Of a stretch of DNA of 64,000 bases, positions 44,057-61,678 are shown one piece after another. The DNA lies in the NCBI GenBank assembly GCA_031291305.1, contig JARLJH010000048.1, positions 186,001 through 250,000 of the forward strand, in the 5' to 3' direction. The translations under genes were made by a program, and so were the position numbers. The stretch is from Rhodoferax sp. GTDB taxonomy: Bacteria > Pseudomonadota > Gammaproteobacteria > Burkholderiales > Burkholderiaceae_C. Under the pieces are notes generated by a model. That model did not search any database, had not been told where the DNA came from, and saw only the letters and a list, made by a program, of their open reading frames with translations. The first letter of the stretch is position 1. Each line of letters begins with the position of its first letter.

Positions 44057-44080
44057 GGTCATGGTGAACTACTTCACCAC
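44057..44080 (-). promoter_or_regulatory. Late-promoter dyad, copy for the leftward lysis/packaging operon
   Basis: On the minus strand: GGTGAAGTAGTTCACC followed by ATGACC. It matches the copy at 54942 (GGTGAAGCGTTTCACC then ATGACC) except in the centre, including the preceding GT. It sits between a terminator and the holin gene, where a late promoter is expected. Confidence 0.72.
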
Positions 44081-44096
44081 CGGTCCGAAGTTAGGC

Positions 44097-44120
44097 AAAA
44101 AAAAGGCACCCGTGGGTGCC
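44097..44120 (-). terminator. Terminator of the repressor operon
   Basis: On the minus strand GGCACC-CACG-GGTGCC is followed by eight T. It separates the lysogeny operon (44207-45672) from the late dyad and holin gene. Confidence 0.88.
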
Positions 44121-44206
44121 TGAGAGTCTCGACCGGGGGGATATAAGTAGATCAGCTTGCAAGTCTGACCGGTGGCCGAGATGTTTTTATCAGTGGAAAG
44201 TCTACA

Positions 44207-44428
44207 TCAGTTTTTGCGTGGTTTGGATGTCCTATCCGGAGGCTGACTATCTTCCGCACTGCATGTCTTTTTAGATTGGCTGGTGGTGCCATCGTTGCAG
44301 ACAAAGTATTTCCCCAGGCAGTGTGAGACACCGCCTTTGCGACCAGAGCATGGGTAGTTGGTTGCTTGAGCGCTGGACGCCATGATGATGATGACAAAAA
44401 GGAAAAACGGTTTCATGTGAATTTTCAT
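44207..44428 (-). CDS. Small secreted cysteine-containing protein, co-transcribed with the repressor
   Basis: A 73-residue protein with a signal peptide (KPFFLFVIIIMASSAQA) and a compact mature part: YPCSGRKGGVSHCLG, FVCNDGTTSQSKKTC, four cysteines that could pair. Similar short secreted proteins are widespread in proteobacteria, without known function. The ATG at 44428 overlaps the upstream gene by four bases; an in-frame ATG at 44416 is an alternative. Followed by the operon terminator. Expression in the lysogen is expected. Confidence 0.72.
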   Translation of the reverse strand: MKIHMKPFFLFVIIIMASSAQATNYPCSGRKGGVSHCLGKYFVCNDGTTSQSKKTCSAEDSQPPDRTSKPRKN

Positions 44429-45021
44429 GAGCAATACGAACCACGCTTAGCCGTTGCAGATGGGTATTTTTTGTAAAACTCACACACCCATGGCCTGGGT
44501 TGAAGGTAAGGTACATCGAGAGATGCATAACTCATTTTCTGCAGATACGTCAGGGCCATCCAGTCAGCAGGAAGCTCGCTTCGTTTGAGTTCAACAATGG
44601 CCCAGTTCTTGCCGCTGGACTCGACTGCATTGAAACGTATCCATTCCAGCGTAGGCGCTTTTTTAAAGGCGTTTCGCGCTACGCGCATGGTGTCATCAGC
44701 TAACCCATTGAAGTCCTGAGAACTCCCCCACAATCCGCCCGTGTTAAAGGTAACCTCGACTCGGTACATGGGCGTATCAATAGGTTTGTTATTGACGTAT
44801 GCCAGAGAATTTGAGCAAATTTTCTGCACGCTTGATACCCCGATTTCGTCTTTTACCAGGGCTTCAATGGCAGGGGCGTCACTGTCGCCACATGCCGCAG
44901 CAGCGCTTTTTACCAAAACGTGAGTGCCGCTGCTGGCACGTTGCCAGCTCTGATAACCCCACGCCATGACCAGCAAAAGCAGAAAGCAAATAAGGGCCAA
45001 AGTTCTTGGTGCGATTTTCAT
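44425..45021 (-). CDS. Membrane-anchored hypothetical protein in the repressor operon
   Basis: A 198-residue protein with an N-terminal membrane anchor (LALICFLLLLVMAWGYQSW) and a periplasmic domain of about 170 residues with five cysteines. No family recognised. It starts six bases after the repressor stop and overlaps the small secreted gene, so the three genes form one lysogeny operon. Position and topology suggest lysogenic conversion or superinfection exclusion; this is inference. Confidence 0.75.
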   Translation of the reverse strand: MKIAPRTLALICFLLLLVMAWGYQSWQRASSGTHVLVKSAAAACGDSDAPAIEALVKDEIGVSSVQKICSNSLAYVNNKPIDTPMYRVEVTFNTGGLWGSSQDFNGLADDTMRVARNAFKKAPTLEWIRFNAVESSGKNWAIVELKRSELPADWMALTYLQKMSYASLDVPYLQPRPWVCEFYKKYPSATAKRGSYCS

Positions 45022-45027
45022 AACTGT

Positions 45028-45672
45028 TCACCATTCGTGAGTTGATGCGACGACCCGACCCAGAATTGATACGTCCTGTGACTTGGCCAGGTTGATGTCA
45101 TAGGGCGGGAAATTGGGGTTTTCACTGCTGAGTCTCAGGATGCCTTCGGGTAGCAGCTGGCAGTATTTCACAAGCAATTCATCATCCTGGCGCAACACGT
45201 AGGCATAGCCGCTTTTGGGGAGAGTCTGCCCGAGATCAATGAGCACCTTGTCGCCATCTGACAACTTGCCAGACATGGATTCCCCGGACACATCAATGAC
45301 TCGCAAGTTGGCTGGTGAAAGCCCTCGCTTATTGAGCCAGCGTCGGCTGAAACAAAGTCCCTCAACTTGTGACTCTGCATCATGACCATTAACGGCACCA
45401 GGACCGGCACTCGCGTAAGCATTGTGACGTGGGACAACGACAAAGCTGTCGTCATTGCCAGCGCTTCGGTTTCCAGTGACAACAAACAAAACGTCAACAC
45501 CTATCAAGTGCGCTGCAGCCAGATAAGCAGCATCAGGCATACGTCCACCGGACTCGTAGTTGAACTGGGACGTTTTGCTAACCCCCGCTTTTCTGCCGAA
45601 CTCTTCTTGACCAAGGCCGAGCCGTTGCCGTTCTAACTTGAGACGGTCGCCTATTTCAACATTCGTTGACAT
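45028..45672 (-). CDS. LexA/CI-type phage repressor
   Basis: A 214-residue repressor. An N-terminal helix-turn-helix (ERQRLGLGQEEFGRKAG, then VSKTSQFNYESGGR) is joined to an S24 peptidase domain with catalytic Ser in DVSGESMSGKLSDGD, Lys in ELLVKYCQLL and a plausible Ala-Gly cleavage site in YASAGPG. All parts for RecA-stimulated self-cleavage are present, so SOS induction is likely. The ATG at 45672 is preferred; a GTG at 45696 lies inside the operator repeats. Confidence 0.9.
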   Translation of the reverse strand: MSTNVEIGDRLKLERQRLGLGQEEFGRKAGVSKTSQFNYESGGRMPDAAYLAAAHLIGVDVLFVVTGNRSAGNDDSFVVVPRHNAYASAGPGAVNGHDAESQVEGLCFSRRWLNKRGLSPANLRVIDVSGESMSGKLSDGDKVLIDLGQTLPKSGYAYVLRQDDELLVKYCQLLPEGILRLSSENPNFPPYDINLAKSQDVSILGRVVASTHEW

Positions 45673-45694
45673 TTCGGTTGATGGTTCTTGTTTC

Positions 45695-45894
45695 ACTGTT
45701 AATCAACTGTTAACTAAAACCCGAGTATGTCACCAACAAACCGGCATGCATAGACCAGGGTTATGCCGATACCGACACCTTCTTTTGGAAATATTCAACA
45801 AAACAACAGTCAAAGCATTGCAATAGCCGTTTTGTTGAACTATGATTGCTAACAGTTCAATAAATGTTAATTAACTGTCCTGAGAGGTCAACAG
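45695..45894. promoter_or_regulatory. Early control region with repressor operator candidates
   Basis: ACTGTTAA occurs twice 11 bases apart (45695-45702, 45706-45713). On the right are its inverse TAACAGT (about 45850-45856) and the palindrome GTTAATTAAC (45866-45875) running into AACTGT. These flank the divergent repressor and early genes and are likely operators. A GAGAGG ribosome-binding site precedes the early gene at 45895. Confidence 0.62.
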
Positions 45895-46101
45895 ATGGCA
45901 ACTAATTCAGTAGCAGGTTCCACAAAGGTGAAAACGCCTGAAGAAGCCAAGCAGGCGCTCTATGCGAAGGGAATCACCCTGTCGCAGTTCGCTGCCAACC
46001 ATGGTTTTAAGTACCGCACCGTCTCGGAAGTGATACGTGGTGTGAACAAGGGGCTCTACGGCGAGGGCCACAACGTGGCTGTTGCCTTGGGATTGAAGTA
46101 A
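45895..46101 (+). CDS. Ner-like DNA-binding protein (BcepMu gp16 type)
   Basis: A 68-residue protein: KTPEEAKQALYAKGITLSQF, ANHGFKYRTVSEVIRGVNKG and HNVAVALGLK, a helix-turn-helix of the small early regulators of transposable phages. It probably tunes the early promoter, as Ner does in Mu. First gene of the rightward early operon. Confidence 0.82.
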   Translation: MATNSVAGSTKVKTPEEAKQALYAKGITLSQFAANHGFKYRTVSEVIRGVNKGLYGEGHNVAVALGLK

Positions 46102-46115
46102 CTCACTGGGAAATC

Positions 46116-46334
46116 ATGAACATCTCTGCAACCCTAACCGAAGGCCGCCATGACCAGCTGCTGGTGCTGCTGGATACCAGTGCGATGTCCCCGGCCGCAA
46201 CGCATCTTGCGTTCCTGCGAAAAGTAGCCACCAACGCACCCATTTCGGCCTACCGCGAGACGTATGCCCGCCAGGCGAGAGAGTTGGCAGGTCTGATTAT
46301 TCAGGCCGGTTGCCGCCCAGTTTTAGAAGGATAA
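46116..46334 (+). CDS. Hypothetical early phage protein
   Basis: A 72-residue protein, no family recognised. MNISATLTEGRHDQLLVLLD then helical AYRETYARQARELAGLII. It lies 14 bases after the Ner-like gene and directly abuts the next gene. Confidence 0.65.
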   Translation: MNISATLTEGRHDQLLVLLDTSAMSPAATHLAFLRKVATNAPISAYRETYARQARELAGLIIQAGCRPVLEG

Positions 46335-47366
46335 ATGATGACAAAAAAGCAAACAACCGAAGTAGTCGAGACCAATGTACGGACAGTGCGTACATTGGAT
46401 TTCACGGATGCTGACTCAGCGGCAGCCCAGGATTTGGGGATCATGATTGGCGGTGCCATCGGTGACCGGATTTCTCGGGCAGTGGTTTCCTACAACATGG
46501 CCGCAAGGCTTGCTGTTGAGGCTGGCTATCTGTTGCTGAGCGTGAAGGCCGAAACCGACGATGGGAAGTTCATCGCCAGTGTTGAGGCAATGGGATTGAC
46601 GCGCCAACGGTCGGCCGAGCTGATGCGTATGGCCAAGTTCACCACTATGCTTCCCGAAGCCCAGCGCGCCGAGCTTCTGACTCTGCCGAAGTCCAAAGTC
46701 CTGGCCCTCGCCAGCGCCGACTCGGCTGTCATTGAGCAGATGCTGGAAGACGGCGATGTATCTGACCTGGAAGACATGAGTGTGCGCGGCCTGCGTGATC
46801 GCATCCGCCAGTTGGAAGCCGGTGTGACTGATCTAGCGGTTGAGCGCGATACGGCCCTGGCCGACCTCAAGGCCGCAGAGAAGAGCGCCAAGCGCCGGGC
46901 GCGTGACGAAGAAGACTTTGGCGTGCCGATGGTGGTGGTCGATGCACGGGCAGAACTAGCAGCCCTGATCAAGAAGGCTGAACTGGCCATCACCTCGCTC
47001 TACCCGGTGGGCGTAGAAATCTACAACCTGACCACCCATGAGGAAGCCCGCGAATGGGTGGCCCCCAGCCTTCGGCTTGGACTGTCTGGCCTGCTGGCGG
47101 TGCGTGAGTTGGTGGACGGCAGCATCAAGAGCTATGTCGAGGCCATGGGTGAGTCAGCCCAGCGCCTGAAGTCTCAGCCGGATGTGCTGGCCTTCCTGGA
47201 CCCAACCGAGATCAAAGCGCTAGCCGAAGAGTGGGCGCGACTGACCGACACCCATAAATACGAATCCGATCTGCGCGTGCATGAGCGTGCTGCGGCCAAG
47301 CCTCGCGGCAAGGGTCGGCCAGCCAACGCACCAGAAGCACCCACAACTACCAGGAGCAGCAAATGA
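46335..47366 (+). CDS. Early phage protein with ParB/DUF3102-like character, unidentified
   Basis: A 343-residue protein. The first half resembles phage proteins that read environmental or replication cues (AARLAVEAGYLLLSVKAE, FIASVEAMGLTRQRSAELMR, LLTLPKSKVLALASAD). A central coiled coil follows (LRDRIRQLEAGVTDLAVERD). The C-terminus is rich in Lys/Pro/Ala. Function unknown. Overlaps the next gene by four bases. Confidence 0.7.
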   Translation: MMTKKQTTEVVETNVRTVRTLDFTDADSAAAQDLGIMIGGAIGDRISRAVVSYNMAARLAVEAGYLLLSVKAETDDGKFIASVEAMGLTRQRSAELMRMAKFTTMLPEAQRAELLTLPKSKVLALASADSAVIEQMLEDGDVSDLEDMSVRGLRDRIRQLEAGVTDLAVERDTALADLKAAEKSAKRRARDEEDFGVPMVVVDARAELAALIKKAELAITSLYPVGVEIYNLTTHEEAREWVAPSLRLGLSGLLAVRELVDGSIKSYVEAMGESAQRLKSQPDVLAFLDPTEIKALAEEWARLTDTHKYESDLRVHERAAAKPRGKGRPANAPEAPTTTRSSK

Positions 47367-47560
47367 AACCGCATAACACCAATCCAATCATGATTGACCA
47401 AGGTCGCAACACATGCTCCCCAGAGGAGTTGGCAGTTCTTGAAAAGCTGGGCCTGGAAGTTTCCCAAATGACCCCGTGGAACCCGTCTAAGAAAGGACGT
47501 GTCGAGCTCGCCCTGCAGGTTGCGGAACGTGAGGTCATAGCCCGGAAGGGCAATGTCTAA
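47363..47560 (+). CDS. Hypothetical small early protein
   Basis: A 65-residue protein, no family recognised. The stretch CSPEELAVLEKLGLEVSQM suggests a helical fold. Overlaps the upstream gene (ATGA) and lies 30 bases before the transposase gene. Confidence 0.65.
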   Translation: MKPHNTNPIMIDQGRNTCSPEELAVLEKLGLEVSQMTPWNPSKKGRVELALQVAEREVIARKGNV

Positions 47561-47590
47561 ACCTGACCACCAACCCAAACAGGTGACCCC

Positions 47591-49255
47591 ATGGGCGCAC
47601 TCCTCAAATTAACCAAAGACATCCGCCAGATGAGTGAAATTTCGGCGGCGTTGAACCCTGACCCATGGGCTAACGCCAGTGAAGAGGCTCGCCGGGTGGC
47701 TGGCTTGCGTGAATCCCTGATTGCGCCGCTGGTGGACCTGGTGAATGGCGGGGCCAGCATCAACCATGCAGCGGCGCTGCTCAAGTCGCAGCTGGATGCG
47801 GGCACGTCAGACCTGCGCACAAAACACCTGGTGGCCATGCTGGCGGGTGATGCGACGGTGGATGTGCTGAGCGTGCCCACCCTCAAGCGCTGGCTGAGCG
47901 GCTTCATCAAGGGCGGAAAGAATTCGTTGCTTCCCAAGCACACCGGGCGCGTGCGCCAGGCCTATGGCTGGGAAGAGCGCGCTGTGGACCTGTACAACCT
48001 GCCCGGCAAGCCGGGTTATGCCGACGTGTCTTCAAGGCTGATTCAAGAGGGGTTTAAAGACGCCACTGAGAGCCGGGTGAAACGCTACCTGAAGGCGCTG
48101 CCCGCTACGCTGGGCAAGTTCAGCGCAGACCGCATTGGCAAGCACCTGCACAAGCTGACGCGCCAGAAGTTTCAGCGCCGCAGCCTGGCCGAGGTGCTGG
48201 TGGGCGAGATTTATGCCGGCGACGGCCACACCGCCGACTGCTATGTGGCGCACCCGAACACGGGGAAACCGTTCCGGCCCGAGCTGACGGTGTTCATCGA
48301 CATCAAGAGCAGCTTCATATCGGGCTGGTGGATGAGTGAGAGTGAAAGCACGGTGTCCACCATGTTCGCTTTGAGCCACGCCATGCGCATGTTCAACCAT
48401 GTGCCTGCATGGGTGTATGTGGACCGGGGGCCGGGCTACCGCGCCCGGCTGCTGTCGGATGAAAGCACCGGCTTCTACAGCCGCTTTGACATTGGCCTGA
48501 TCGGCGCGCTGCCAGGCAACCCGCACGGCAAGGGCTGGATTGAGCGCTTCTTCCGCACTGTGCGCGACAAGCATGACAAGTTCTTTGCCGGTGGCCAGGT
48601 GTATTGCGGCGATGACATGGCCCCCGAGACCAACCGCCGTTTGAGTGCTGATCTGGCCATGGGGCGGCGGCAACTGCCTAGCCTGAAATCGTATGTGGAC
48701 AGCTTCACCGCCTGGCTGGAGCATTACCACGACCAGCCGCAGGACAAGCTCAATGGGCGCACACCCGCCCAGGTGTGGGCCGAGCTGACGCCGGTGCCAG
48801 TCGAGCTGAGCATGGATGCCATTGCCCGGCCACGCGAAGAGTGCACGGTGGGCCGCCAGACCGTGCGCCTGCACAACCGCTTCTATTACGCCGAGGCACT
48901 GGCACTGTTCGACGCGCAGAAGGTGGACGTGGAATACGACCTGCACCACGACAGCCATGTGTGGGTGTTTGACAAGAAGGGCCGCTTCATTGTTGAAGCC
49001 AAGCTCAACAACACGATTGGCGTGCTGCCCACCAGCCGCCTGGAAGAAGGCCGCGACCGCCGCCTGGCAGGCCAGCTCAAACGCCTGCAGCGCAAGGTGG
49101 ACGAGGCCACCCGCCGCCGCGACGACCCGGTGGATGCCACCAGCCAGGCTGCTGCCATCGAGTCCCTGGCACCCGCTGCACCCGCGCTGCCCGCACCGAC
49201 CACCCGTGATGACGATTTCAAGATTGACCTATTAACTTGGAGGAATGACCAGTGA
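47591..49255 (+). CDS. MuA-type DDE transposase
   Basis: A 554-residue transposase with helix-turn-helix-like N-terminal DNA-binding segments (VPTLKRWLSGFIKGGKN) and a retroviral-type catalytic core. The catalytic triad is visible as Asp in YAGDGHTADCY, Asp in WVYVDRGPGYRA and Glu in HGKGWIERFFR. A Mu-type C-terminal domain follows (NRFYYAEALALFDAQKVDVE), then a basic helix that may contact MuB. It cuts and joins the phage ends for integration and replicative transposition. Confidence 0.94.
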   Translation: MGALLKLTKDIRQMSEISAALNPDPWANASEEARRVAGLRESLIAPLVDLVNGGASINHAAALLKSQLDAGTSDLRTKHLVAMLAGDATVDVLSVPTLKRWLSGFIKGGKNSLLPKHTGRVRQAYGWEERAVDLYNLPGKPGYADVSSRLIQEGFKDATESRVKRYLKALPATLGKFSADRIGKHLHKLTRQKFQRRSLAEVLVGEIYAGDGHTADCYVAHPNTGKPFRPELTVFIDIKSSFISGWWMSESESTVSTMFALSHAMRMFNHVPAWVYVDRGPGYRARLLSDESTGFYSRFDIGLIGALPGNPHGKGWIERFFRTVRDKHDKFFAGGQVYCGDDMAPETNRRLSADLAMGRRQLPSLKSYVDSFTAWLEHYHDQPQDKLNGRTPAQVWAELTPVPVELSMDAIARPREECTVGRQTVRLHNRFYYAEALALFDAQKVDVEYDLHHDSHVWVFDKKGRFIVEAKLNNTIGVLPTSRLEEGRDRRLAGQLKRLQRKVDEATRRRDDPVDATSQAAAIESLAPAAPALPAPTTRDDDFKIDLLTWRNDQ

Positions 49256-50253
49256 GTACCCCCGCAACCGACACCCAGAACGCCCTGCCCGGCATGACCA
49301 GCGCGCCGACGGCATACACACCGCAAGACGCGTCCAAGGTGGACGCCATCAAGAAGTGGCTGGAAGACCGCAAGAAAAGCCGCGCCTGGCTGAGCAAGAA
49401 GGCCGACATTCCCAGCGGCACACTGAGCCAGATTCTGAGCGGCAAGTACATCAGCAGCCCGACACGTCAGCTCAACCAGATGTTGAGTGTGCTGGACGTG
49501 GAAGCTGATCGCCTCAAAGACGGCACGCCCGGCTACGTGAAGGGCAGCGTGCACAAGCTGATGGGCGTGGTGTGTGACCGCACCCGCAAGCACCAGAACT
49601 TCGGTGTCATCACCGGCTATGTGGGGGTGGGCAAAAGCCGCTTCTGCGCCGAGTACCGTGAGACCAACCCAATGACGCTGCTGGTCGAAGTCAGCCCCAA
49701 CATGACACCTGGCGTGCTGATGACCGAGCTGCTGGAGCAACTCAACAACGCGGTGCCTGCCGGGCTGGACCGCAAGTTCCGCGAGCTGGTGCGGGTGCTC
49801 AAGGGCACCAACTATGTGATCGTCGCTGATGAGGCCGAGAAGATGAGCAGCAGCGCGCTGGAGCACCTGCGCCGCCTGCGCGACATGGCCATGGTCGGCG
49901 TGGTGCTGGTGGGCACCGAGAAGCTCACCAGCCTGATCAAACCCCAGCACGGCCAGTTTGACCAGGTGCGCAGCCGGGTGGGCATGTGGCCCGAGACGAT
50001 CCAGCGCATCAGCCGCGATGATGCCGATGACATGGTGCGCGCCGCCCTGGCGGATGCTGGTGAGCTGACAGATGACGTGCTGGACACCCTGTGGGCATAC
50101 TGCGACGGCAGCGCCCGTGTGCTCAATGAAAACCTGGTGCCTGCCGTGCGTGACTACGGCATGGGCAGCTTGCCCCTGAACAGCCGCATGATTGAGAAGA
50201 TTGCCGCCAGCGTGCTGTTTATGACCAAGCCACGCGTTGAGGTGGCGAAATGA
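49252..50253 (+). CDS. MuB-type transposition ATPase
   Basis: A 333-residue AAA+ target-selection protein. An N-terminal lambda-like helix-turn-helix (KKADIPSGTLSQILSGKY) is followed by Walker A TGYVGVGKSRF and Walker B NYVIVADEAEKM. It delivers target DNA to the transposase and sets immunity. GTG start overlapping the transposase stop by four bases. Confidence 0.92.
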   Translation: MSTPATDTQNALPGMTSAPTAYTPQDASKVDAIKKWLEDRKKSRAWLSKKADIPSGTLSQILSGKYISSPTRQLNQMLSVLDVEADRLKDGTPGYVKGSVHKLMGVVCDRTRKHQNFGVITGYVGVGKSRFCAEYRETNPMTLLVEVSPNMTPGVLMTELLEQLNNAVPAGLDRKFRELVRVLKGTNYVIVADEAEKMSSSALEHLRRLRDMAMVGVVLVGTEKLTSLIKPQHGQFDQVRSRVGMWPETIQRISRDDADDMVRAALADAGELTDDVLDTLWAYCDGSARVLNENLVPAVRDYGMGSLPLNSRMIEKIAASVLFMTKPRVEVAK

Positions 50254-51421: not shown

Positions 51422-51452
51422 ACCCCAATTTTTAACTGAGAAGGAACAGATC

Positions 51453-52076: not shown

Positions 52077-52417
52077 GCACACCCTCCACAAACCAGGAGA
52101 CAGTAGTGACCGTGACATTTCAGGACCACGGACAGGACTTTCTTGAGTGGGATATCAAGGACATGACTGTTGTTGGTTGTCGGCCATTCCAGGCCTGGGT
52201 CTGGGTTGGCAAGAAAGTACACACCATGCCAACGCTGCCGATGCAGCAGATTGTGATCATCAACGAGGCAGGGGAACCTCGACCAATCAGATATCCGGTC
52301 GTAAAGATCAAGCCGCAAAGTTGCAAAAAGCTCTCAAGACCGGTGCTGAATAGCAAAGTAGTGACCCGTGGTGCCCAGGCCCTGCTGGCCAAGTACAAGA
52401 ACGGAGCCACATCGTGA
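52073..52417 (+). CDS. Hypothetical early phage protein
   Basis: A 114-residue protein, mostly beta by pattern (TVTFQDHGQDFLEWDIKDM, QIVIINEAGEPRPI). No family recognised. Overlaps both neighbours by four bases. Confidence 0.65.
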   Translation: MSTPSTNQETVVTVTFQDHGQDFLEWDIKDMTVVGCRPFQAWVWVGKKVHTMPTLPMQQIVIINEAGEPRPIRYPVVKIKPQSCKKLSRPVLNSKVVTRGAQALLAKYKNGATS

Positions 52418-53334: not shown

Positions 53335-53807
53335 GTCAGCCTACAACCGACATCCATCGCAAGCGCGAGCTGACCTTGATCCACTTGGCCAGGGTCCAGC
53401 TTGGGCTGAGTCGTGCCGACTATGAGCATGTGCTGGACACGGTGACTGGCGCGATCAGCTCCGCCGATCTGGATGCGGCTGGGCGTGACAAATTGATCAA
53501 GCACTTCAAGTCCAAGGGGTTTGTGGTCAAGCCGACGGGCAAGTCAAAGCAGGCTAGATCGTTGGATGCGCCGCAAGTGCGCAAGCTGCGCGCCATGTGG
53601 TGGGCGTTGGCCGACGTGGCTGCGGTGGAGAAGCCAGCCAATGCCCTGGCTTGCGCCAAGGCGGTGGAGGCCTGGGCCGTGCGCCAGGCCAGCCAGGGGG
53701 CGGTGGGCGCGTTCTCAGCCTTGCGCTTTGCGTCGCACCACCAGCTCAATAAGCTGATTGAAGAAATGAAGGCCTGGGGCCTGCGCGTGAAGGCAGATAT
53801 CCAATGA
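53331..53807 (+). CDS. GemA-like regulatory protein
   Basis: A 158-residue protein of the GemA/gp16 family: LIHLARVQLGLSRADYEHVL, DKLIKHFKSKGFVVKP and ALRFASHHQLNKLIEEMKAW. In Mu GemA alters host gene expression and DNA supercoiling. Overlaps the Mor gene by four bases. Confidence 0.9.
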   Translation: MSQPTTDIHRKRELTLIHLARVQLGLSRADYEHVLDTVTGAISSADLDAAGRDKLIKHFKSKGFVVKPTGKSKQARSLDAPQVRKLRAMWWALADVAAVEKPANALACAKAVEAWAVRQASQGAVGAFSALRFASHHQLNKLIEEMKAWGLRVKADIQ

Positions 53808-54283
53808 TCCGCCCAGCCCCCACGCTGACCATCAAGCCCCAAGCCCTGCCCGCTGCCTTGCGCGAGCTGGCGCGGGTGCTGGGCGACTCTGACGCGCTGC
53901 GCCTGGTGGGCATGCACGGCGGTGCGCGGGTGTCGGTGCCCAAGCAGGCGCGCGCTGACCACCCGCTGCGCATGGCGCTGGGTGAAGAGGCGTTTGGGAA
54001 GCTGGTGGCGGAATACGCAGGCGAGACGATTGAGCTGCCCAAGGGTGATGCGTACCTGCGGGAGCTGCGCCACGACCAGGTGCGCCAGTGTCGTGAGCAA
54101 GGCCTGACGGTGGATGAGACCGCCGAGGCGGTGGGCTACAGCCGCCGCCATGTGATCAACATCATTGGCGGCCATGCGGATGGCACCGATACGCTGACGA
54201 TGGATATGTTTGAGGAGGCTCCGGCTCCCAAGAGCTACGCTGGCCAGGCCAACGACCCGTTCGGGATGAGCGGGTCTAGGTGA
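53804..54283 (+). CDS. Mor-type middle/late transcription activator
   Basis: A 159-residue Mor/C-family activator. The N-terminal dimerisation region is followed by the helix-turn-helix RQCREQGLTVDETAEAVG then YSRRHVINIIGG. It is the only Mor/C-like gene in the window and is the best candidate to bind the late dyads at 44057, 54942 and 61663. Last gene of the early operon. Confidence 0.88.
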   Translation: MIRPAPTLTIKPQALPAALRELARVLGDSDALRLVGMHGGARVSVPKQARADHPLRMALGEEAFGKLVAEYAGETIELPKGDAYLRELRHDQVRQCREQGLTVDETAEAVGYSRRHVINIIGGHADGTDTLTMDMFEEAPAPKSYAGQANDPFGMSGSR

Positions 54284-54296
54284 GATAATTTGAGCG

Positions 54297-54480
54297 TCAC
54301 CTCAAAAAAAGGGGTGATGGGATGTGAGAGTCCCTTGAGACGCGGCAGGAGCCGCAGCACCGCAAGTTTGCGGCTTCTTCATTCGTGCACCAATTTTTGG
54401 CGGCTCGAATGGGAGAAGCGCAAGCTTCTGCCGGTAACGCTCGCGTCTCCCGGTCTCTCACACCCTTTCGAGTCGCCGCC
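54297..54480 (+). ncRNA. Structured region resembling phage C4-type antisense RNA
   Basis: Hairpins in order: TCACCTC/GGGGTGA around seven A (54297-54317); GCGGC-AGGA-GCCGC (54342-54355); CCGCAA/TTGCGG (54360-54373); a long closing stem GGCGGCTCGAA (54399-54409) with TTCGAGTCGCCGCC (54467-54480) enclosing AGAAGC-GCAA-GCTTCT. Two upstream segments are complementary to downstream ones: TGTGAGAG (54323) with CTCTCACA (54454) and GAGACGCG (54337) with CGCGTCTC (54442). Paired complementary segments of this kind are the hallmark of P1 C4 and P4 CI RNAs. Confidence 0.55.
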
Positions 54481-54825
54481 CTAACGGGTGGGTTTGAAAC
54501 GATGGGAGCTTTTCTGAATTCGCATCCAAACGTGCCGCCAGTAGTTGCGGCCATCCTTGTACAGACTGACCAGCAGCGCCGTGCCTTCAAAGTGGTGGAT
54601 GCGGTGGATGACCTGGACAGCCAGTTGGGCGCTTACCGAGCCGTTGAACAGTTGGCCATGAGTGAGAAGGCCCAGGGTGACGAGGGGCTGCCGCAGTTGC
54701 GCCGCAGTGACCTGGCCCAATTGCTGTCGGTGCTCAATACCAATTTGTCAGACTATTGTGCAAAAGCGCGCCAGGCTGCTTTATTCTCTGCGCAGGGATC
54801 AGGCAACGGCCCTAACCCTGTTTAA
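54385..54825 (+). CDS. Hypothetical phage protein overlapping the structured RNA (Ash/Icd-like start)
   Basis: Up to 146 residues from a GTG at 54385; ATGs at 54409 and 54502 are alternative starts. The first 40 residues (ARMGEAQASAGNARVSRSL, TPFRVAALTGGFE) are read through the RNA structure and resemble the start of phage Ash/Icd-like proteins, where conservation reflects the RNA. The rest (QQRRAFKVVDAVDDLDSQ, LPQLRRSDLAQLLSVLN) is helical and unrecognised. Translation may be controlled by the RNA. Confidence 0.6.
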   Translation: MHQFLAARMGEAQASAGNARVSRSLTPFRVAALTGGFETMGAFLNSHPNVPPVVAAILVQTDQQRRAFKVVDAVDDLDSQLGAYRAVEQLAMSEKAQGDEGLPQLRRSDLAQLLSVLNTNLSDYCAKARQAALFSAQGSGNGPNPV

Positions 54826-54941
54826 AACCCCCGCAAACCCGTTTAAAACCGCCTTCTGGACCAAGCCCGGTATATCCGGAGCCAAAAGCGCCTCAAGGCC
54901 CGCCACGGGCCATATTCCAAACATCTGTTTATGCCTGATGT

Positions 54942-54957
54942 GGTGAAGCGTTTCACC
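54942..54957 (+). promoter_or_regulatory. Late-promoter dyad before the protease/scaffold gene
   Basis: GGTGAAGCGTTTCACC, followed by ATGACC. The dyad ends 36 bases before the ATG at 54994, and the same distance separates the copy at 61663 from its gene. Downstream, GGCAAAGT in this copy aligns with GGCACAGT there. The 168-base gap 54826-54993 holds no gene. Confidence 0.72.
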
Positions 54958-54993
54958 ATGACCTAAAGCCCTGTGCCCGGCAAAGTACAGGGC

Positions 54994-56166
54994 ATGAACA
55001 AAGCACACCAATTTACAGGCCTTGCCGACTGGATCGAAGTCTTCAAGGCGGGCACGCACACCGACAGCAAGGGCCGCAGCTGCACTTTCACCGAGGGTGA
55101 TCTGGATCAGATGGTGAGCAACCTGGCACTGGGCGCGGCACCCGCCGTGCTGGGCCACCCCAAACACAACGACCCGGCCTATGGCTGGGTCAAGCCCGAA
55201 GGGGCCAAGCGCGAAGGAGCGTCCTTGTTCGTCAAGTTTGACGACATCAACCCGGCCTTTGCGGCAGGTGTGGACAGCGGCGCGTACCGCAACCGCTCGG
55301 TGTCGATTTTCAAAGACAAAGACGCGGGTTGGCGCTTGCAGCATGTGGGCTGGCTCGGTGCGGCCCGCCCTGCCATTGATGGCCTGGCCCCGCTGGACTA
55401 CAGCGCCGCCGTGGATGCCTATGAGTTTGATGCCGACGACTGGGACATTGGCAGCGCCCTGGGCGACACGGCTGACCTGCTGCGCGGCCTGCGTGAGCAA
55501 CTGATTGCCAAAGAAGGCCTGGAGGCTGCTGATGCCGCGCTGCCCAGCTGGCGCATTCAGTCTGTGGCCGATGCCGCCCAGCGCGTCAAGACCGCCGCCC
55601 TGGCCGAGCCTGATGAGAGCGATCCCAGCCCATTTTCAAAACCAACCCCAACCGGAGGAGTTATGTCATTTACCCAAGAGCAGCTGGACGCTGCAACGGC
55701 CCAGGCCAAAAAAGAAGCCCAGGACAAGGCGGCGGCCGAATTTGCCGCCAGCCAGGCCGAGCTGACCAAGCTGCGCAGTGAGCGCCAGGCGGATCGCATT
55801 GGTGCACAGATCAATGGCTGGAAGGCCAAAGGTCTGGTCACCCCGGCTGAAGAGGCTGGGCTGGCTGAGTTCATGGGCTCGCTGGAAAGTGGTGCCGGTG
55901 CTGAGTTCAGCTTCAGTGCCAGTGACAAGAGCCAGGTCAAGAAGACGCCAGCGCAGTTTTTTGCTGACTTTATGGCGGCGCGCAAGCCATTGGTGAAGCT
56001 GGGCCAACAGGTGGTTGCTGATGAATTGCCTGGTGTGAATGGCAATGACGCCTCTTCTCTGGCCGATGCGGCGCGCAGCTATATGAAAGAACAGGCCGAA
56101 CAAGGTCTGACCGTGAGCGTGGCGGAAGCCGTGAGCTACGTGTCCAGCCGCACGGGTGCCGTGTAA
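54994..56166 (+). CDS. Prohead protease fused to scaffold (Mu I/Z-like)
   Basis: A 390-residue protein. The first 220 residues match Mu gpI-like proteases (FTGLADWIEVFKAGTHTD, AVLGHPKHNDPAYGWVKPE, YRNRSVSIFKD, HVGWLGAARPAIDGLAPL). The rest is an alanine-rich coiled-coil scaffold. The ATG at 54994 is preferred to the GTG at 54973. An internal start at 55663 should give the scaffold alone, as for Mu Z. Confidence 0.9.
   Translation: MNKAHQFTGLADWIEVFKAGTHTDSKGRSCTFTEGDLDQMVSNLALGAAPAVLGHPKHNDPAYGWVKPEGAKREGASLFVKFDDINPAFAAGVDSGAYRNRSVSIFKDKDAGWRLQHVGWLGAARPAIDGLAPLDYSAAVDAYEFDADDWDIGSALGDTADLLRGLREQLIAKEGLEAADAALPSWRIQSVADAAQRVKTAALAEPDESDPSPFSKPTPTGGVMSFTQEQLDAATAQAKKEAQDKAAAEFAASQAELTKLRSERQADRIGAQINGWKAKGLVTPAEEAGLAEFMGSLESGAGAEFSFSASDKSQVKKTPAQFFADFMAARKPLVKLGQQVVADELPGVNGNDASSLADAARSYMKEQAEQGLTVSVAEAVSYVSSRTGAV
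55651..55665 (+). promoter_or_regulatory. Internal ribosome-binding site and start for the scaffold protein (Z-like, 55663-56166)
   Basis: GGAGGAG (55654-55660) lies two bases before an in-frame ATG at 55663, codon 224 of the protease gene. The product would be 167 residues starting MSFTQEQLDAATAQAKK, the whole coiled-coil scaffold. Confidence 0.75.
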
Positions 56167-56198
56167 CCCCCAACGATTTATCAACGGAGAAAACAAGC

Positions 56199-56582
56199 AT
56201 GGCTAACTTACTTTTGGCAATTTCAGCGGTGGCCGATGTGGCCTTGACCAACAACCGCATCGTCAAGCAAGGCAGCGGCGACTTTGCCGTCACCACCGCC
56301 GTGGCGGCTACAGATGCGCTTTACGGCGTGGTCAACGAAAAACCCTATGGCGTGGCCGCTGGCGAGCAGGTGGACGTGGTGCGCGTGGGCATTGCGTGGG
56401 TGGAGGCCGGTGCCGCCGCTGCACGCGGTGCACCCGTGACGGCTGACGCGGTGGGCCGTGGTGTTGCCGCAGCGCCTGCAGCTGGCTCCAACGTGCGAAT
56501 CATCGGCTTTTTCGACGAAGCGCCCAGTGCTGCTGGTGACGTGGTTCGCGTGATGCTGTCTCCCGGCCTGATGCAGGGCTAA
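56199..56582 (+). CDS. Capsid decoration/DUF2190-like protein
   Basis: A 127-residue protein placed between scaffold and major capsid. Small-residue-rich beta pattern: ALTNNRIVKQGSGDFAVTTA, EQVDVVRVGIAWVEAGAAA and FFDEAPSAAGDVVRVMLSP, as in DUF2190-like cement proteins. AACGGAG precedes the start. Confidence 0.75.
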   Translation: MANLLLAISAVADVALTNNRIVKQGSGDFAVTTAVAATDALYGVVNEKPYGVAAGEQVDVVRVGIAWVEAGAAAARGAPVTADAVGRGVAAAPAAGSNVRIIGFFDEAPSAAGDVVRVMLSPGLMQG

Positions 56583-56620
56583 GTAACCAACTGATTTATT
56601 AACCAGGACAGGAACCAACT

Positions 56621-57577
56621 ATGACAACGACTGCCTTCCCCGTCAATCCGGCGCTGACCGCGATTTCGATGATGTACACCAACCCGGATGTGGCGCTGAT
56701 CGCCGATCAGGTGTTGCCCCGCATCCCGGTAGCCAAGAAGTTCAGCTACAGCGCGTATGACCTGGCACAGGCATTCACCGTGCCACAAACCCAGGTGGGG
56801 CGCAAGTCGCAGCCTGTGCAGGTGGACTTCTCAGGCCAATTGGTGAACTCTGAGACGGTTGACTACGCACTGGATGATCTGGTGCCCAACGATGACATCA
56901 ACGCCTGGGCCAGCATGCCCAAGCCGGATCGTGGCGGCCCACCCAACCCTCTGGATGTGTCGACCATGATGTTGACCAAGCTGGTGCAGCTGGCACGTGA
57001 AATCCGTGTCGCGGCCCAAGTGTTCAACACAGCCAACTACGTCGCTGGACAATTCGCCACTTTGTCGGGCACCAGCCAGTGGAGTGACTACACCAACAGC
57101 AACCCGCTGGATGCCCTCTTGTCCGCCCTGGACGTGCCCATCTATCGCCCCAACCTGGTGGTGTTGGGTCAACAAGCGTTCACCAAGCTGCGCCAACACC
57201 CCAAGGTGGTGCAGGCGGTGTTTGGCACGGCGCAAACCGGCGGTGTGGTGGGGCGCAAGCAACTGGCCGAGGTCCTGGAGGTGCAGGACGTGGTGGTGGG
57301 GGCAGGGTTTGTCAACACCGCTCGCAAAGGGCAAAACGCCAACATGTCGCGGGTGTGGGGCAAGCACTGCGCACTGTTGTACGCCAGCAAAGAAAGCGCA
57401 CAAATGGGCCAGCCGGTTTGGGGCTTTACTGGCCAGTGGGGCGACAAGACCGCTGGCGACATGCCTGACCCGAAGACAGGCCGCAATGGCTCGCAACTGG
57501 TGCGCGTGGGTGAGGGTGTGAAAGAAGTCATCAGTGCGCCCGCCTTGGGCTACTTCTTCCAAAACGCAGTGGCGTAA
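56621..57577 (+). CDS. Major capsid protein
   Basis: A 318-residue capsid subunit with HK97-type features: NPDVALIADQVLPRIPVAKK near the N-terminus, TMMLTKLVQLAREIRVAAQV along the spine helix, then RPNLVVLGQQAFTKLRQHP and GVKEVISAPALGYFFQNAV at the end. Position after the decoration protein matches Mu T. Which capsid family it belongs to is not certain. Confidence 0.86.
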   Translation: MTTTAFPVNPALTAISMMYTNPDVALIADQVLPRIPVAKKFSYSAYDLAQAFTVPQTQVGRKSQPVQVDFSGQLVNSETVDYALDDLVPNDDINAWASMPKPDRGGPPNPLDVSTMMLTKLVQLAREIRVAAQVFNTANYVAGQFATLSGTSQWSDYTNSNPLDALLSALDVPIYRPNLVVLGQQAFTKLRQHPKVVQAVFGTAQTGGVVGRKQLAEVLEVQDVVVGAGFVNTARKGQNANMSRVWGKHCALLYASKESAQMGQPVWGFTGQWGDKTAGDMPDPKTGRNGSQLVRVGEGVKEVISAPALGYFFQNAVA

Positions 57578-57612
57578 GCCACCCCACTATTTTTGATTGA
57601 ACGGAGATTGAT

Positions 57613-57810
57613 ATGGCTACAGCAAAAAACACATCAGCTGCCCCCGCTTTGGTGGCGCTGACTGCCCTGTCGGTGGTAGAGCATGACGGCGTGACTTATG
57701 GACCCGGCATGGATGCGGGCGACAAGCTGCAGGTGACCGCCGCCCAGGCCAAGGCCTTGGTTGACGTGGGCGCTGCCGCGCTGGACGAACCCGCCCCCGC
57801 AGCCGAGTAA
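57613..57810 (+). CDS. Hypothetical small virion-region protein
   Basis: A 65-residue protein: ALTALSVVEHDGVTYGPG, then LQVTAAQAKALVDVGAAAL. This short helix-strand pattern recurs between capsid and DUF1320 genes of Mu-like phages. Function unknown. Confidence 0.7.
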   Translation: MATAKNTSAAPALVALTALSVVEHDGVTYGPGMDAGDKLQVTAAQAKALVDVGAAALDEPAPAAE

Positions 57811-57816
57811 GCGCCC

Positions 57817-58335
57817 ATGAGCTACGCCACCCCGCAGCGCTTCATTCAGGAATATGGCCTGGATGAGACCACCCAGCTCCTGGCCGATGAGCAGCAGTTG
57901 CTCACCAGCCAGTTGTTGACCGATGCGCTGACCGGGGCGTGGACGGGTACGCCCAGTGCGCCTGAGCAAGCTGCGGCCACCGCCGCCAAAGACCGCATCA
58001 TGCGCAAGCTGCTGACCGTGAGCAACTACATGGACGGCTACCTCCGCAGCGCGGTGACCTTGCCCCTGTCTACCACCGATGCCAACGCAGGCACGCTTGA
58101 AGAGTGCTGCATTGCCCTGGTGCGCACGGGCCTGGCCGACGACTCGGACAACACCTCTGAGCGCATGGAGAAGATTGCTGACCAGTGGCGAGCCTGGCTG
58201 AAAGATGTGCAGTCTGGCCGGGTCACGCTGGTGGCCAGTTCGGGTGATGAGGTGGTGGGCCTGAGCCGTGTGCACACCGGCCAGGCAGCCACGCGCTTTG
58301 GTTGGGATTCGTTCCCGCCGATCAGGAGCTGGTGA
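57817..58335 (+). CDS. DUF1320 head-tail connector-type protein (Mu gp36-like)
   Basis: A 172-residue protein: SYATPQRFIQEYGLDETTQ, AAKDRIMRKLLTVSNYMDGY and LRSAVTLPLSTT, typical of DUF1320. It probably forms part of the head-tail junction. The stop overlaps the next start (TGATG). Confidence 0.88.
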   Translation: MSYATPQRFIQEYGLDETTQLLADEQQLLTSQLLTDALTGAWTGTPSAPEQAAATAAKDRIMRKLLTVSNYMDGYLRSAVTLPLSTTDANAGTLEECCIALVRTGLADDSDNTSERMEKIADQWRAWLKDVQSGRVTLVASSGDEVVGLSRVHTGQAATRFGWDSFPPIRSW

Positions 58336-58781
58336 TGGCTGGCACGGCACTGACGATGACGTTTGAAGACGGCCCGCTGGTCAGGCACCTGGCGCGCTTG
58401 TCGGCCCGCCAGGAGTGGACCAAGGCGCGCCGTGACATCGGCGAGTTCATGGTGGGTGACATCCAGGACAACCTGGACGGGCAAAAGCTGTTTGACGGCT
58501 CACCCATGCCACAAAGCAAGGCAGCTATCAAGCGGCGTGGAAAGACGCTGATCAAGGACCACCATCTGTATGACAGCTACACCTACAACCTGGTGGGTGG
58601 CGGGCTGGAGGTCGGTTCGAATAAGGTCTATGCGGCCATTCAACACTTCGGTGGTGAAACAGGTCGCGGCCATAAAACCAAAATTGAAGCCCGCCCTGTG
58701 ATGGGCATCGCCATACGCCAGGAGCTGCAGATTGGGTACATCGTGAGCCAGGCTATCCGAGATATTGAGAGAGCCCAATGA
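58335..58781 (+). CDS. Virion morphogenesis protein (Mu G-like)
   Basis: A 148-residue protein: TKARRDIGEFMVGDIQDNLD, DGSPMPQSKAAIKRRGKTLI and YAAIQHFGGETGR, as in the phage virion morphogenesis family. In Mu gene G follows F in the head operon; here F is in the leftward operon and G sits among the connector genes. Confidence 0.88.
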   Translation: MAGTALTMTFEDGPLVRHLARLSARQEWTKARRDIGEFMVGDIQDNLDGQKLFDGSPMPQSKAAIKRRGKTLIKDHHLYDSYTYNLVGGGLEVGSNKVYAAIQHFGGETGRGHKTKIEARPVMGIAIRQELQIGYIVSQAIRDIERAQ

Positions 58782-59386
58782 GCGCAACGATTCTTCTTGA
58801 CCAGGCGGTGGCACGCATTCGCGCCCAGTTCACCAAGGCCGAGGTGGCCACAGTGCAGGCGTATGCGGGCGAATTCTCTGCAGCGGAGATTCCGTTCAAA
58901 AGCTACAGCTGCCCCGCCATTTTTGTGACGGTGCAGGGCTGGCAACCCGCCGACAACAGTTGCCGCCTGAGTGGCAAGCATGCCACCAAGGTGCGCATGG
59001 CGGCGTTTGTGGCGTTCAAACATGCCGACCGCAACAAGCGCATGGCCGGGGCGATGCTGCTGGCGGAGCGCCTGGGCATCGTGATGCGCCAGTGGGAGCC
59101 GATGCGCGAAGCGGCCAATGCCAATCTGCCGGTGACGATCGCTGGTCTGGAGGCGGATGCCACCTGCGAAAACCTCTATGGCCGGGCGCTGGACGCGGCT
59201 GGCCAGGCGCTGTTCCTGGTGGACTGGCAGCAGTGTGTAAAGCCTGCCGTGCCGATGGAACAGCTGTGGGACTTGCTGTCCATCGAGATCATTGACAGCG
59301 CGCGGGGCGGCATGGTGCCCCCGGCTGCTGCGGCCACGGGCGTGGTGCCGGTGGTGACTGAAGACGTGAAATTTGTTCAAAACTGA
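58778..59386 (+). CDS. DUF1834 tail-terminator-type protein (Mu gp37-like)
   Basis: A 202-residue protein: LDQAVARIRAQFTKAEVATV, AFVAFKHADRNKRMAGAM and MEQLWDLLSIEIIDSARGG. DUF1834 members occupy the gp37 place of Mu-like phages. Overlaps the G-like gene by four bases. Confidence 0.86.
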   Translation: MSATILLDQAVARIRAQFTKAEVATVQAYAGEFSAAEIPFKSYSCPAIFVTVQGWQPADNSCRLSGKHATKVRMAAFVAFKHADRNKRMAGAMLLAERLGIVMRQWEPMREAANANLPVTIAGLEADATCENLYGRALDAAGQALFLVDWQQCVKPAVPMEQLWDLLSIEIIDSARGGMVPPAAAATGVVPVVTEDVKFVQN

Positions 59387-59396
59387 AAGGTGCCCC

Positions 59397-59624
59397 ATGG
59401 CCAAGACTGATTTAAAGACTGACGATGTTGCTGCCGCTGACCAGGCGACCACCGCAGCGACGCCCGCCATGGGCTCGCTGGTGCAGGTGAAAGTGGCCGC
59501 TGGCTGCATGCTGGTGAACAACGAAACCGGTGCTTACTTTGAGCCCGATGTGGCTACGCCGGTGACGGTGACCACGACGCTGCTGCGTCGCCTGCAGGAT
59601 GGTGATGTGACGCTGGTGGGCTAA
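59397..59624 (+). CDS. DUF2635 small tail protein (Mu gp38-like)
   Basis: A 75-residue protein ending VTTTLLRRLQDGDVTLVG, with a central QVKVAAGCMLVNNETGAYFE, typical of DUF2635. The ATG at 59397 is preferred over the frame start inside the preceding gene. Confidence 0.8.
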   Translation: MAKTDLKTDDVAAADQATTAATPAMGSLVQVKVAAGCMLVNNETGAYFEPDVATPVTVTTTLLRRLQDGDVTLVG

Positions 59625-59680
59625 AGCCGCTTCAAGTCATCACAAAACCCCTTTCATACAGCTTTTAACGGAACTTTGAT

Positions 59681-61165
59681 ATGTCTTTACCCAACCTGCT
59701 TTCTTTGAGCTTCCTGGTGCCGTTTGTGGCGGCCAAGAATGATTTTTCTCGCGCCATCCGGGGCCTGCGCGGCATGCCTCGGCGGCTGCTGCTGGTGGGC
59801 CACAAGCTGGCGGCTGGTGGCGCGGCGTTGAACACACTGATCACGGTGACGACCGAGGCCGATGCCATTGCGCAGTTTGGCGAGGGCTCCATGCTGACAA
59901 GCATGTGGCGTGATGCCAAGGCCAATGCCGATTTGGGCCTGCCAATTGATTGCTTCTGCATTGCGCCAGGCGGCTCAGCCGTGTCTGCCACCAGCACGAT
60001 TGCGATCACGCCGCCGGGTAACCTGGCCATGAGTGGCGAGGTGATGTTGTATGTGGGCGGTGAGCGTGTGAGTGTGGGGGTGACCACGGCAGACACAGCC
60101 AATACGGTGGCCACCAAGCTGATCAATGCGATCAATGCCAATGCCAAGCTGCCCGTGACAGCAGCGGCGACGGTTAATCTGTATGAGTGCAAGCTGACGT
60201 GCAAATGGGGTGGCCCGACTGGCAATGACATTGACCTGCGTACCACTTACTACACCGATGACCGCTTGCCCAACAGCTTGATCGTGACAGTGCCCGCGAT
60301 GACGGGCGGTGCTGTTGTGCCTGATGTGACGCCGCTCATCGCGGCCATGAACCTGTACCGGGCGACCGAGATTGTGGTGCCGTTTACCGACAGCGCCAAC
60401 ATGGGCATCCTGGAGACCGAGCTGGCCGCACGCTGGTTGGCCAACAATATGCAGGACGGGACGGTGATCAATTCCATTCGCGGCACCGAAGCGGCGAATA
60501 CCACCTGGCTGAGCACCCGCAACAGCCCGCATGTGCACACCATCACCACGACCAAAGACTGCACCAACCCGTGGGAACTGGCTGCGGCAGCTGGTGCGGC
60601 GATAGAGAGCCTGGCCGCTATTGACCCGGCGATGCCTGCCACAGGGGTGGCGCTGGTGGGCTACAAGGGGCCGGCCCAGGGGCAGCATTGGACCGTTGAC
60701 CAGCTCAACAACATGCTGGTGGCCGGTGGCTGCCCGCTGCAGATTGCGTCGGACTACAGCGGCACACTGCTGCGCATGGTGACTAACTACAAGAAAACGA
60801 CCGCTGGTGCTGCCGACCGCAGCATGGCTGAGCTGGCCTGGATCAAGACGATGAGCTACTACCGGTGGTTCCACGTGACGGAGTTCCAGACCAAGTACCA
60901 GGGCTTCAAGATTGCCCAGTACATCACCGACCCAATTCCTGGCCAGAAGATCATGACCCAGCAGCTGGGCGAGGAAATCATGATTGGGCTGTACAAGCAG
61001 TTCATGGACGCCGGGCTGTGCCAGAACATGGACTATTACCGAAAAACGCTGGTGGTGGAGGTGGATGGCCCCAACGGCAAGCTCAAGGTGCAGGATGAGC
61101 CGGTGATCGTGACCCAGCACTACCAAACTGAAATCAGCAGCTACGTGGTGGCGGGCCAAGTCTGA
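59681..61165 (+). CDS. Contractile tail sheath protein (Mu L-like)
   Basis: A 494-residue sheath subunit: LPNLLSLSFLVPFVAAKNDF at the start, GGAVVPDVTPLIAAMNLYRA in the middle and the conserved sheath C-terminus (MDYYRKTLVVEVDGPNGKL, QTEISSYVVAGQV). Shows that the phage is a myovirus. Confidence 0.94.
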   Translation: MSLPNLLSLSFLVPFVAAKNDFSRAIRGLRGMPRRLLLVGHKLAAGGAALNTLITVTTEADAIAQFGEGSMLTSMWRDAKANADLGLPIDCFCIAPGGSAVSATSTIAITPPGNLAMSGEVMLYVGGERVSVGVTTADTANTVATKLINAINANAKLPVTAAATVNLYECKLTCKWGGPTGNDIDLRTTYYTDDRLPNSLIVTVPAMTGGAVVPDVTPLIAAMNLYRATEIVVPFTDSANMGILETELAARWLANNMQDGTVINSIRGTEAANTTWLSTRNSPHVHTITTTKDCTNPWELAAAAGAAIESLAAIDPAMPATGVALVGYKGPAQGQHWTVDQLNNMLVAGGCPLQIASDYSGTLLRMVTNYKKTTAGAADRSMAELAWIKTMSYYRWFHVTEFQTKYQGFKIAQYITDPIPGQKIMTQQLGEEIMIGLYKQFMDAGLCQNMDYYRKTLVVEVDGPNGKLKVQDEPVIVTQHYQTEISSYVVAGQV

Positions 61166-61201
61166 GCCTGAAGCGCTACCCAATCAACTTAGGAGATAGA
61201 C

Positions 61202-61576
61202 ATGGCAGGAACAGACAATTTGCTTTTTCACATCGACCAGATCGTGGTGGACGGCAAGCCCATCGCGTTTGAAGACGGATCGGGCATGCTGAGCGGCGCG
61301 GCACGCTTTCGGAATGAGGTGGTGGCCAGCGCGAGCGGTGATGACTTCAACAAGCGTAATCGGGTGCCGACGCTGTTCAAAACCAAGATTCAGTTTGGCC
61401 CGGCGGTGAACCCGGATGACTATGCCAATTACCAAGGGGTGCAGATCACGGCGCGTGATGCGCAAAGTGGGCGCCGTGCACTGATGCCCAATTGCAGTTT
61501 TGGCGAGATGGGCGAAATTGGCGGCGGGTCGGTGGACGTGACGTTTAACGTGCTGGCACCGGTGCAGTGGCTGTAA
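61202..61576 (+). CDS. Tail tube protein (Mu M-like)
   Basis: A 124-residue tube subunit: AGTDNLLFHIDQIVVDGKP at the start, VPTLFKTKIQFGPAVNP in the middle and MGEIGGGSVDVTFNVLAP at the end. AGGAGATA precedes the ATG. Followed by a strong terminator. Confidence 0.9.
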   Translation: MAGTDNLLFHIDQIVVDGKPIAFEDGSGMLSGAARFRNEVVASASGDDFNKRNRVPTLFKTKIQFGPAVNPDDYANYQGVQITARDAQSGRRALMPNCSFGEMGEIGGGSVDVTFNVLAPVQWL

Positions 61577-61629
61577 AGTAACAACACACCAAGGAACCCG
61601 CAAGGGGCTGGCCCGGCGGAGGGCACTAA

Positions 61630-61657
61630 GGGGCAGGCTTATCACCTGCCCCTTTTT
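61630..61657 (+). terminator. Terminator after the tail tube gene
   Basis: Perfect arms GGGGCAGG (61630-61637) and CCTGCCCC (61645-61652) followed by five T. Ends the first rightward late operon; a new late dyad begins six bases later. Confidence 0.9.
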
Positions 61658-61662
61658 CATTT

Positions 61663-61678
61663 GGTGAAGTGTTTCACC
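61663..61678 (+). promoter_or_regulatory. Late-promoter dyad before the tail assembly gene
   Basis: GGTGAAGTGTTTCACC, followed by GTGAC. It differs from the 54942 copy by one base inside the dyad and lies at the same distance from its gene. It immediately follows a terminator, so it should start a separate late transcript. Confidence 0.74.

Follow-up and report, generated by a model that had tools for sequence, protein, structure and literature searches.

The stretch of DNA analysed here, 64,000 nt of Rhodoferax sp. contig JARLJH010000048.1 (the window), covers most of one Mu-like prophage, in which copies of the same dyad stand ahead of the late gene units. From this arrangement we consider it likely that one activator, most probably the product of a Mor-like gene, directly turns on four late units through rigid promoter cassettes that contain the dyads, and that three of the four are expressed from leaderless mRNAs. 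The prophage has the split type of gene order also found in phages KS10 and TJ1: genes for a holin, an endolysin, a terminase and a portal-like protein run leftward, while those for a transposase, a transposition protein and the Mor-like protein, then protease, sheath and tail, run rightward. Collinearity with TJ1 continues past the end of the window to ~73.6 kb on the window scale.

Three dyads lie in the window (Table 1). An earlier sequence-only reading had located all three, each with RTGAC directly on its 3' side and each ahead of the first gene of a late unit. Its coordinates are exact, and PHROG matches bear out the genes in question as head maturation protease, tail assembly chaperone and holin. 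The prophage carries a fourth dyad, ahead of gp46/V at G000:C12:253296 (67296 on the window scale), which that reading did not see because it lies past the window end, 3.3 kb outside. The reading also missed the core promoter and the leaderless geometry described below, and was otherwise largely right. Within the window, GGTGAAGYGTTTCACC with at most three mismatches gave 7 rows against 1.02 expected, a count reached in 0 of 100 shuffles; with palindromes counted on both strands, these rows represent 4 places. By count, the looser GGTGAANNNNTTCACC is barely over chance (6 matches with at most two mismatches against 2.34 expected; 3 of 100 shuffles reach 6), and its only exact matches in the window are the three dyads. 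Many random copies in the host, which the sequence-only reading had named as contrary to its proposal, were not found: the whole 4.98-Mb genome has 6 exact GGTGAANNNNTTCACC places, 4 in the prophage and 2 outside it, the latter with no RTGA, −10-like hexamer or ATG on either strand. Scored with a matrix derived from relatives, the four prophage sites reach 51–60 bits and the next-best window site 5.6. Across 399 family genomes, GGTGAANNNNTTCACCRTGAC matched in 4, with four sites in the prophage's own genome and single sites, all lacking the hexamer, in the other three. The protease promoter region, used as a query against plasmids, gave no match.

Each dyad opens a cassette of constant layout: dyad, RTGACC, 17 bp, a hexamer of the form.A.A.T, 5–7 bp and, except at the lysis unit, ATG. 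RTGACC has 4 of 6 bases in common with TTGACA, and we prefer to count RTGAC as a −35-like element and not as operator sequence; the hexamer is −10-like. The consensus is ATGACC, 17 bp, SANAST, in which A, A and T were preset by how the site set was chosen. Where loci were picked without regard to the hexamer, it was present at its set offset in 39 of 42 sites and at other offsets between 15 and 35 in none (0/42), the three sites without it being L028 and two lysis dyads read from their back side. When 49 sites were grouped by spacer similarity, 16 clusters resulted, 14 of which have the hexamer in all members. Among the GTGAANNNNTTCACNRTGA-type control sites listed in other viral contigs (at least 73), at least 6 have the hexamer, at least 7 the ATG and at least 4 both; the listed sites with both are in L101 (two), L104 and L128, contigs that encode Mor relatives of the same group. 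With the hexamer placed at −12 to −7 and the predicted +1 set seven bases after it, the dyad falls at around −51 to −36 (or −52 to −37). Sigma-54 elements were also considered at a GGCAC stretch, where the −12 part, judged by eye, fails to match.

In related phages, the same sites are found ahead of the same genes, namely holin, protease, tail chaperone and gp46/V. Scans of IMG/VR yielded 33 stretches by dyad plus RTGA, 9 loci by Mor protein and 14 by Mor alignment, including those 9. The motif search of prophage and relatives that the sequence-only reading had proposed thus recovered, besides the fourth site, 44 late-gene sites in relatives: exact dyads in these loci gave 96 distinct strand readings, and in 44 of them a match to a late gene of the four follows (13 gp46/V, 7 holin, 10 protease and 14 tail chaperone), the hexamer standing at offset 23–28 in every one. 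The remaining 52 readings comprise 49 on the back strand and 3 forward ones with no gene match (L015 at 142, L021 and L028). Four such sites lie ahead of the same genes in Curvibacter phage TJ1, whose Mor has 73% identity across 99% of the query, and 14 of 14 viral contigs found via Mor protein or alignment have sites above 20 bits. The matrix training also represents TJ1, L008 and a 96% relative of the window's Mor. KS10, whose Mor is only 43% identical to the window's and whose dyads have diverged at three of the four places, is outside the training set; its three best matrix matches nevertheless lie ahead of the protease (15.7), the holin (11.0) and the V homologue (3.6), the next scoring −8.9. 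Only scores well over 20 are safe, because unrelated viral loci reach 19.3 and 14.6, and the KS10 score of 15.7 would therefore count by its place rather than its value. A search for the same grammar in distant Mor loci (L056–L087, plus strand only, 32 loci and KS10) gave scattered chance-like matches except in KS10 and was set aside; with both strands read and the hexamer required, the 32 distant loci (1.8–3.4 kb) gave 0 matches and a best matrix score of 0.5.

In both plus-strand copies of the window, the same 36 bases separate the dyad from the next ATG (54994 and 61715), as the sequence-only reading had pointed out. Of 37 non-lysis sites, 36 have an ATG at an offset of 34–36; of 7 holin sites, none does. 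In a set of 40 sites (42 gathered, of which the short frames L021 and the back-side L049 901 were dropped), C precedes the ATG in every case, and the 17-bp spacers (39 distinct) have a mean identity of 36%. All 38 sites considered have either no Shine-Dalgarno match or one of 3 nt; among TJ1 genes, 44 of 54 have a match of at least 4, and the three TJ1 candidates reach 3. The constant 36 bases between dyad and ATG point to leaderless mRNAs, and with no Shine-Dalgarno and a start codon at the predicted +1, the late mRNAs are probably leaderless in the protease, tail chaperone and gp46/V units, three of the four, where the +1 is expected at the A of the ATG. Enrichment of A and C in the first codons was not decisive: 0.70–0.73 for protease and tail chaperone and 0.60 for gp46, against a mean of 0.59 for 51 other TJ1 genes. 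The longest open reading frame (ORF) of the window's tail chaperone opens at 61661, its start falling within the dyad. Deposited protease and tail chaperone starts in TJ1 (L009; 18593 and 25586) and the protease start in KS10 (L010; 18120) lie within or ahead of the proposed promoter. These starts are probably too far upstream, and such start codons in deposited phage records might need correcting.

The lysis unit has no ATG at its +1. Instead, a hairpin spans the predicted +1, with its 5' arm beginning directly after the hexamer (offset 29) in 10 of 10 lysis-type sites and a T-run following it in 8 of 10 phages. For 7 of these ten sites, the holin gene was located downstream; L033 and L015 are contigs of L053 and L055, while L055, L205 and L208 are lysis-type by place, strand and hairpin only. 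Arm sequences vary among the phages with pairing retained (GGACTAC/GTAGTCC, GGGCTTC/GAAGCCC). The mean fold is −12.5 kcal/mol at lysis sites (n = 10) against −6.0 at leaderless-type sites (n = 40, single ones to −14.6), and a transcript start at offset 35 removes the stem, taking the folding energy from between −7.9 and −15.0 to between −1.2 and 0 kcal/mol. Read-through RNA from the repressor side would retain the hairpin and could stop there, whereas RNA begun at the late promoter, with its +1 inside the 5' arm, would lack that arm and continue into the holin gene. We give about even odds that the hairpin is such a start-site valve protecting the lysis genes; if it is, the lysis promoter is a simple means of making a gene deaf to read-through. 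At the lysis dyads of L033 (6346–6361) and L035 (7754–7769), RTGA is present on both sides, the back side lacking the hexamer, and divergent use of these two dyads is conceivable.

Two of the window's dyads, those of the lysis and tail units, follow terminator-like hairpins with T-runs; the sequence-only reading had also placed two copies directly after terminators. The 45 bases upstream of the tail dyad fold at −18.9 kcal/mol, and in 12 of 12 sites examined (drawn from 15 distinct ones) the tail chaperone dyad is directly preceded by a strong hairpin of −15.7 to −28.6 kcal/mol, with T-runs that by eye are weak in TJ1, L008 and L209. Because of these strong hairpins, the late region is probably divided into separate transcripts. 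At the protease sites of L207 (10647), L209 (10643) and L208 (10626), the dyad stem is longer and leads into a T-run, which is T8 in L207 and L209; it looks as if the operator there doubles as the intrinsic terminator of the early operon.

The dyads would thus be the operators of a single activator driving lysis and packaging leftward and head, tail and baseplate rightward. The promoter would be a rigid cassette in which the dyad abuts RTGACC, followed after 17 bp by a weak −10-like hexamer (A at −11, T at −7) and the +1. Host sigma-70 polymerase alone would bind it poorly and would be helped by a Mor-like dimer sitting just upstream of the −35. The cassette, its conservation and placement, and the single Mor-type gene are there in the sequence; from them we infer the binding, the use of sigma-70, the start sites, leaderless translation and termination. 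The Mor-like protein matches three Mor/C family models (Pfam Mor at 25.1 bits, PHROG 836, and PHROG 532 at E 1.4e-4), and its gene is the sole Mor-type match above cut-off in the genome, the runner-up reaching 12.1 bits in a 1050-codon frame elsewhere. None of ten other early proteins has a Mor-type match. The sequence-only reading had left the choice between the Mor-like protein and an unseen C-like one; the latter is unnecessary, because only one Mor-type gene scores above cut-off, and co-occurrence of gene and sites suggests that the Mor-like protein binds the dyads and is the likely activator.

Several observations weigh against this proposal. The Pfam Mor score barely exceeds its cut-off of 24.9, and hhalign gives a probability of 4% against Mu Mor and 40% against Mu C. 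The AlphaFold model of the Mor-like protein (predicted local distance difference test, pLDDT, 71; predicted template modelling score, pTM, 0.48) offers a helix-turn-helix-like match at the C-terminus only, no Mor is among the best 50 of 195 fold matches, 0 PDB matches have E ≤ 0.001, and a sequence search of solved structures likewise brought up no Mor. The 14 of 14 contigs with sites are not independent, as the same contigs also fed the matrix. Individual sites also depart from the pattern: L046, tallied under gp46/V, has another gene in the ~300-base stretch between site and gp46; the hexamer is missing at L028; the protease sites of L050, L128 and L207–L209 lack RTGAC; and in KS10 only the protease retains an ATG at offset 36.

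It is possible, if unlikely, that the promoters and activator are as proposed but translation is not leaderless, with 5' ends a little way upstream, so that leaders would be very short, or with an upstream in-frame start in use. The deposited starts of the TJ1 tail chaperone and the KS10 protease lie upstream, an upstream in-frame start is open at 12 of 40 sites, and the offset-35 ATG of L021, which meets a stop 4 codons later, is unusable for a long frame. At the other 28 sites, however, an upstream start is either missing or cut off, a start at offset 0 would sit inside the −35-like element, and the C–A junction found in 40 of 40 suits a normal +1. For the lysis unit, the hairpin could instead be a 5' stabiliser or leader structure of the lysis mRNA, an explanation that we regard as tenable though short of an even chance: TJ1 and L053, which are near copies, keep the stem without a T-run. 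Against this, with the arm beginning at offset 29 in all ten sites, a normal start at offset 35 cuts the stem and loses nearly all of its folding energy; the T-run in the other eight phages also speaks for termination at the start site. Finally, the dyads could be bound by the prophage repressor (45028–45696) or another regulator rather than by the Mor-like protein. Temperate-phage repressors frequently have palindromic binding sites, and this one is encoded in the same phage. Against this, the intergenic region between repressor and early genes (45697–46115) has no dyad-like site with up to three mismatches, the sites stand ahead of late genes only, their position suits an activator at −43.5, and the host genome has no further RTGAC-bearing site, so that we think binding by the repressor or another regulator very improbable and retain activation by the Mor-like protein.

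The closest known system is the Pm promoter of Mu, where the Mor dyad occupies −51 to −36, immediately next to the −35 region, and where host polymerase acts at a weak core (PMC4287176); the Mor gene of Mu, too, lies just ahead of the genes it controls. The dyad sequence is different, and Pm, as far as it is described there, has no −35 hexamer (PMC4287176), whereas most of the sites in this phage group have RTGAC directly after the dyad. The C-dependent promoters Plys, PI, PP and Pmom of Mu likewise serve several late units and combine a dyad with a non-consensus −10 (PMC4461284); at Plys, TAGACT is read by eye in the place of the −10. Here the activator is of another subgroup, the dyad and the gene split are others, and Plys shows by eye no leaderless geometry. 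Mu also relays from Mor through C to the late genes, whereas no second activator was found in the genome that carries the prophage, and the E18 and C starts of Mu have leaders as annotated. The comparison with Mu late promoters drawn by the sequence-only reading therefore stands as to the new dyad, given the same four genes in relatives and the Pm geometry, with four promoters rather than three. The KS10 and TJ1 records annotate no such promoters, and the KS10 paper, in the part of its text available, gives an upstream TTG as the protease start and notes none (PMC2628397). A Laribacter paper (PMC3125207) was rejected as a precedent, since in the part available its dyad is catalytic and Ogr serves as the late promoter activator.

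Leaderless mRNAs are generally considered rare in proteobacterial phages. In the open-licence papers searched, we recognised no report describing late promoters of this kind. The complete arrangement, with operator, −35, −10 and start codon fused and one Mor-type protein driving four units, three leaderless and the fourth starting in a terminator hairpin that keeps all but activator-started RNA from the lysis genes, may equally well hold or fail in some part. If true, it would make the one-step late switch of a Mu-like phage group legible directly from DNA and would give, in a proteobacterial phage, a naturally occurring set of structural genes read from leaderless mRNAs.

Table 1. Candidate promoter elements and associated genes in the window.
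Feature	Position	Strand	Basis or remark
Holin, lysis unit gene 1	43628..43990	-	PHROG 1528, E 3.4e-29; Pfam Holin_2-3
Hairpin (one mismatch) with T-run over predicted +1 (~44026-44027)	44006..44033	-	Folding and arm search, ten lysis-type sites
-10-like GACACT	44034..44039	-	Constant offset 23-28 after dyad
-35-like ATGACC	44057..44062	-	4/6 bases of TTGACA; 17 bp to -10-like hexamer
Putative operator dyad, lysis/packaging unit, GGTGAAGTAGTTCACC	44063..44078	-	Exact match; matrix score 52.8
Terminator-like hairpin with T8, upstream of lysis promoter	44097..44122	-	By eye
Mor-like gene, proposed activator	53804..54283	+	PHROG 836, late transcriptional activator, E 2.9e-25; Pfam Mor 25.1 bits
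Putative operator dyad, head unit, GGTGAAGCGTTTCACC	54942..54957	+	Exact match; matrix score 51.1
-35-like ATGACC	54958..54963	+	Abuts head-unit dyad
-10-like CAAAGT	54981..54986	+	Constant offset after dyad
Head maturation protease, ATG at predicted +1	54994..56166	+	PHROG 976, E 8.3e-78; ATG offset 36
Terminator-like hairpin with T-run, directly ahead of tail promoter	61630..61657	+	T-run by eye
Putative operator dyad, tail unit, GGTGAAGTGTTTCACC	61663..61678	+	Exact match; matrix score 52.9
-35-like GTGACG	61679..61684	+	Abuts tail-unit dyad
-10-like CACAGT	61702..61707	+	Constant offset after dyad
Tail assembly chaperone, ATG at predicted +1	61715..62287	+	PHROG 508, E 1.6e-11; ATG offset 36

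Against Pfam Gp41_Mu, the tail chaperone scores 25.6 bits, under the family cut-off of 27. Two ORFs near the promoters, 44425–45021 (−) and 54385–54825 (+), have no PHROG match; the former adjoins the repressor and the latter overlaps a C4 antisense RNA (RF01695) at 54393–54483 (+), between the Mor-like gene and the protease promoter (47.8 bits, cut-off 45). The same RNA is found in L049 (10677–10764, 63.9 bits), where the sequence differs at the place of ORF 54385–54825; it was not found in TJ1, L050 or KS10. KS10 has a type II hammerhead ribozyme (RF02276) at 15732–15799, scoring 72 bits.

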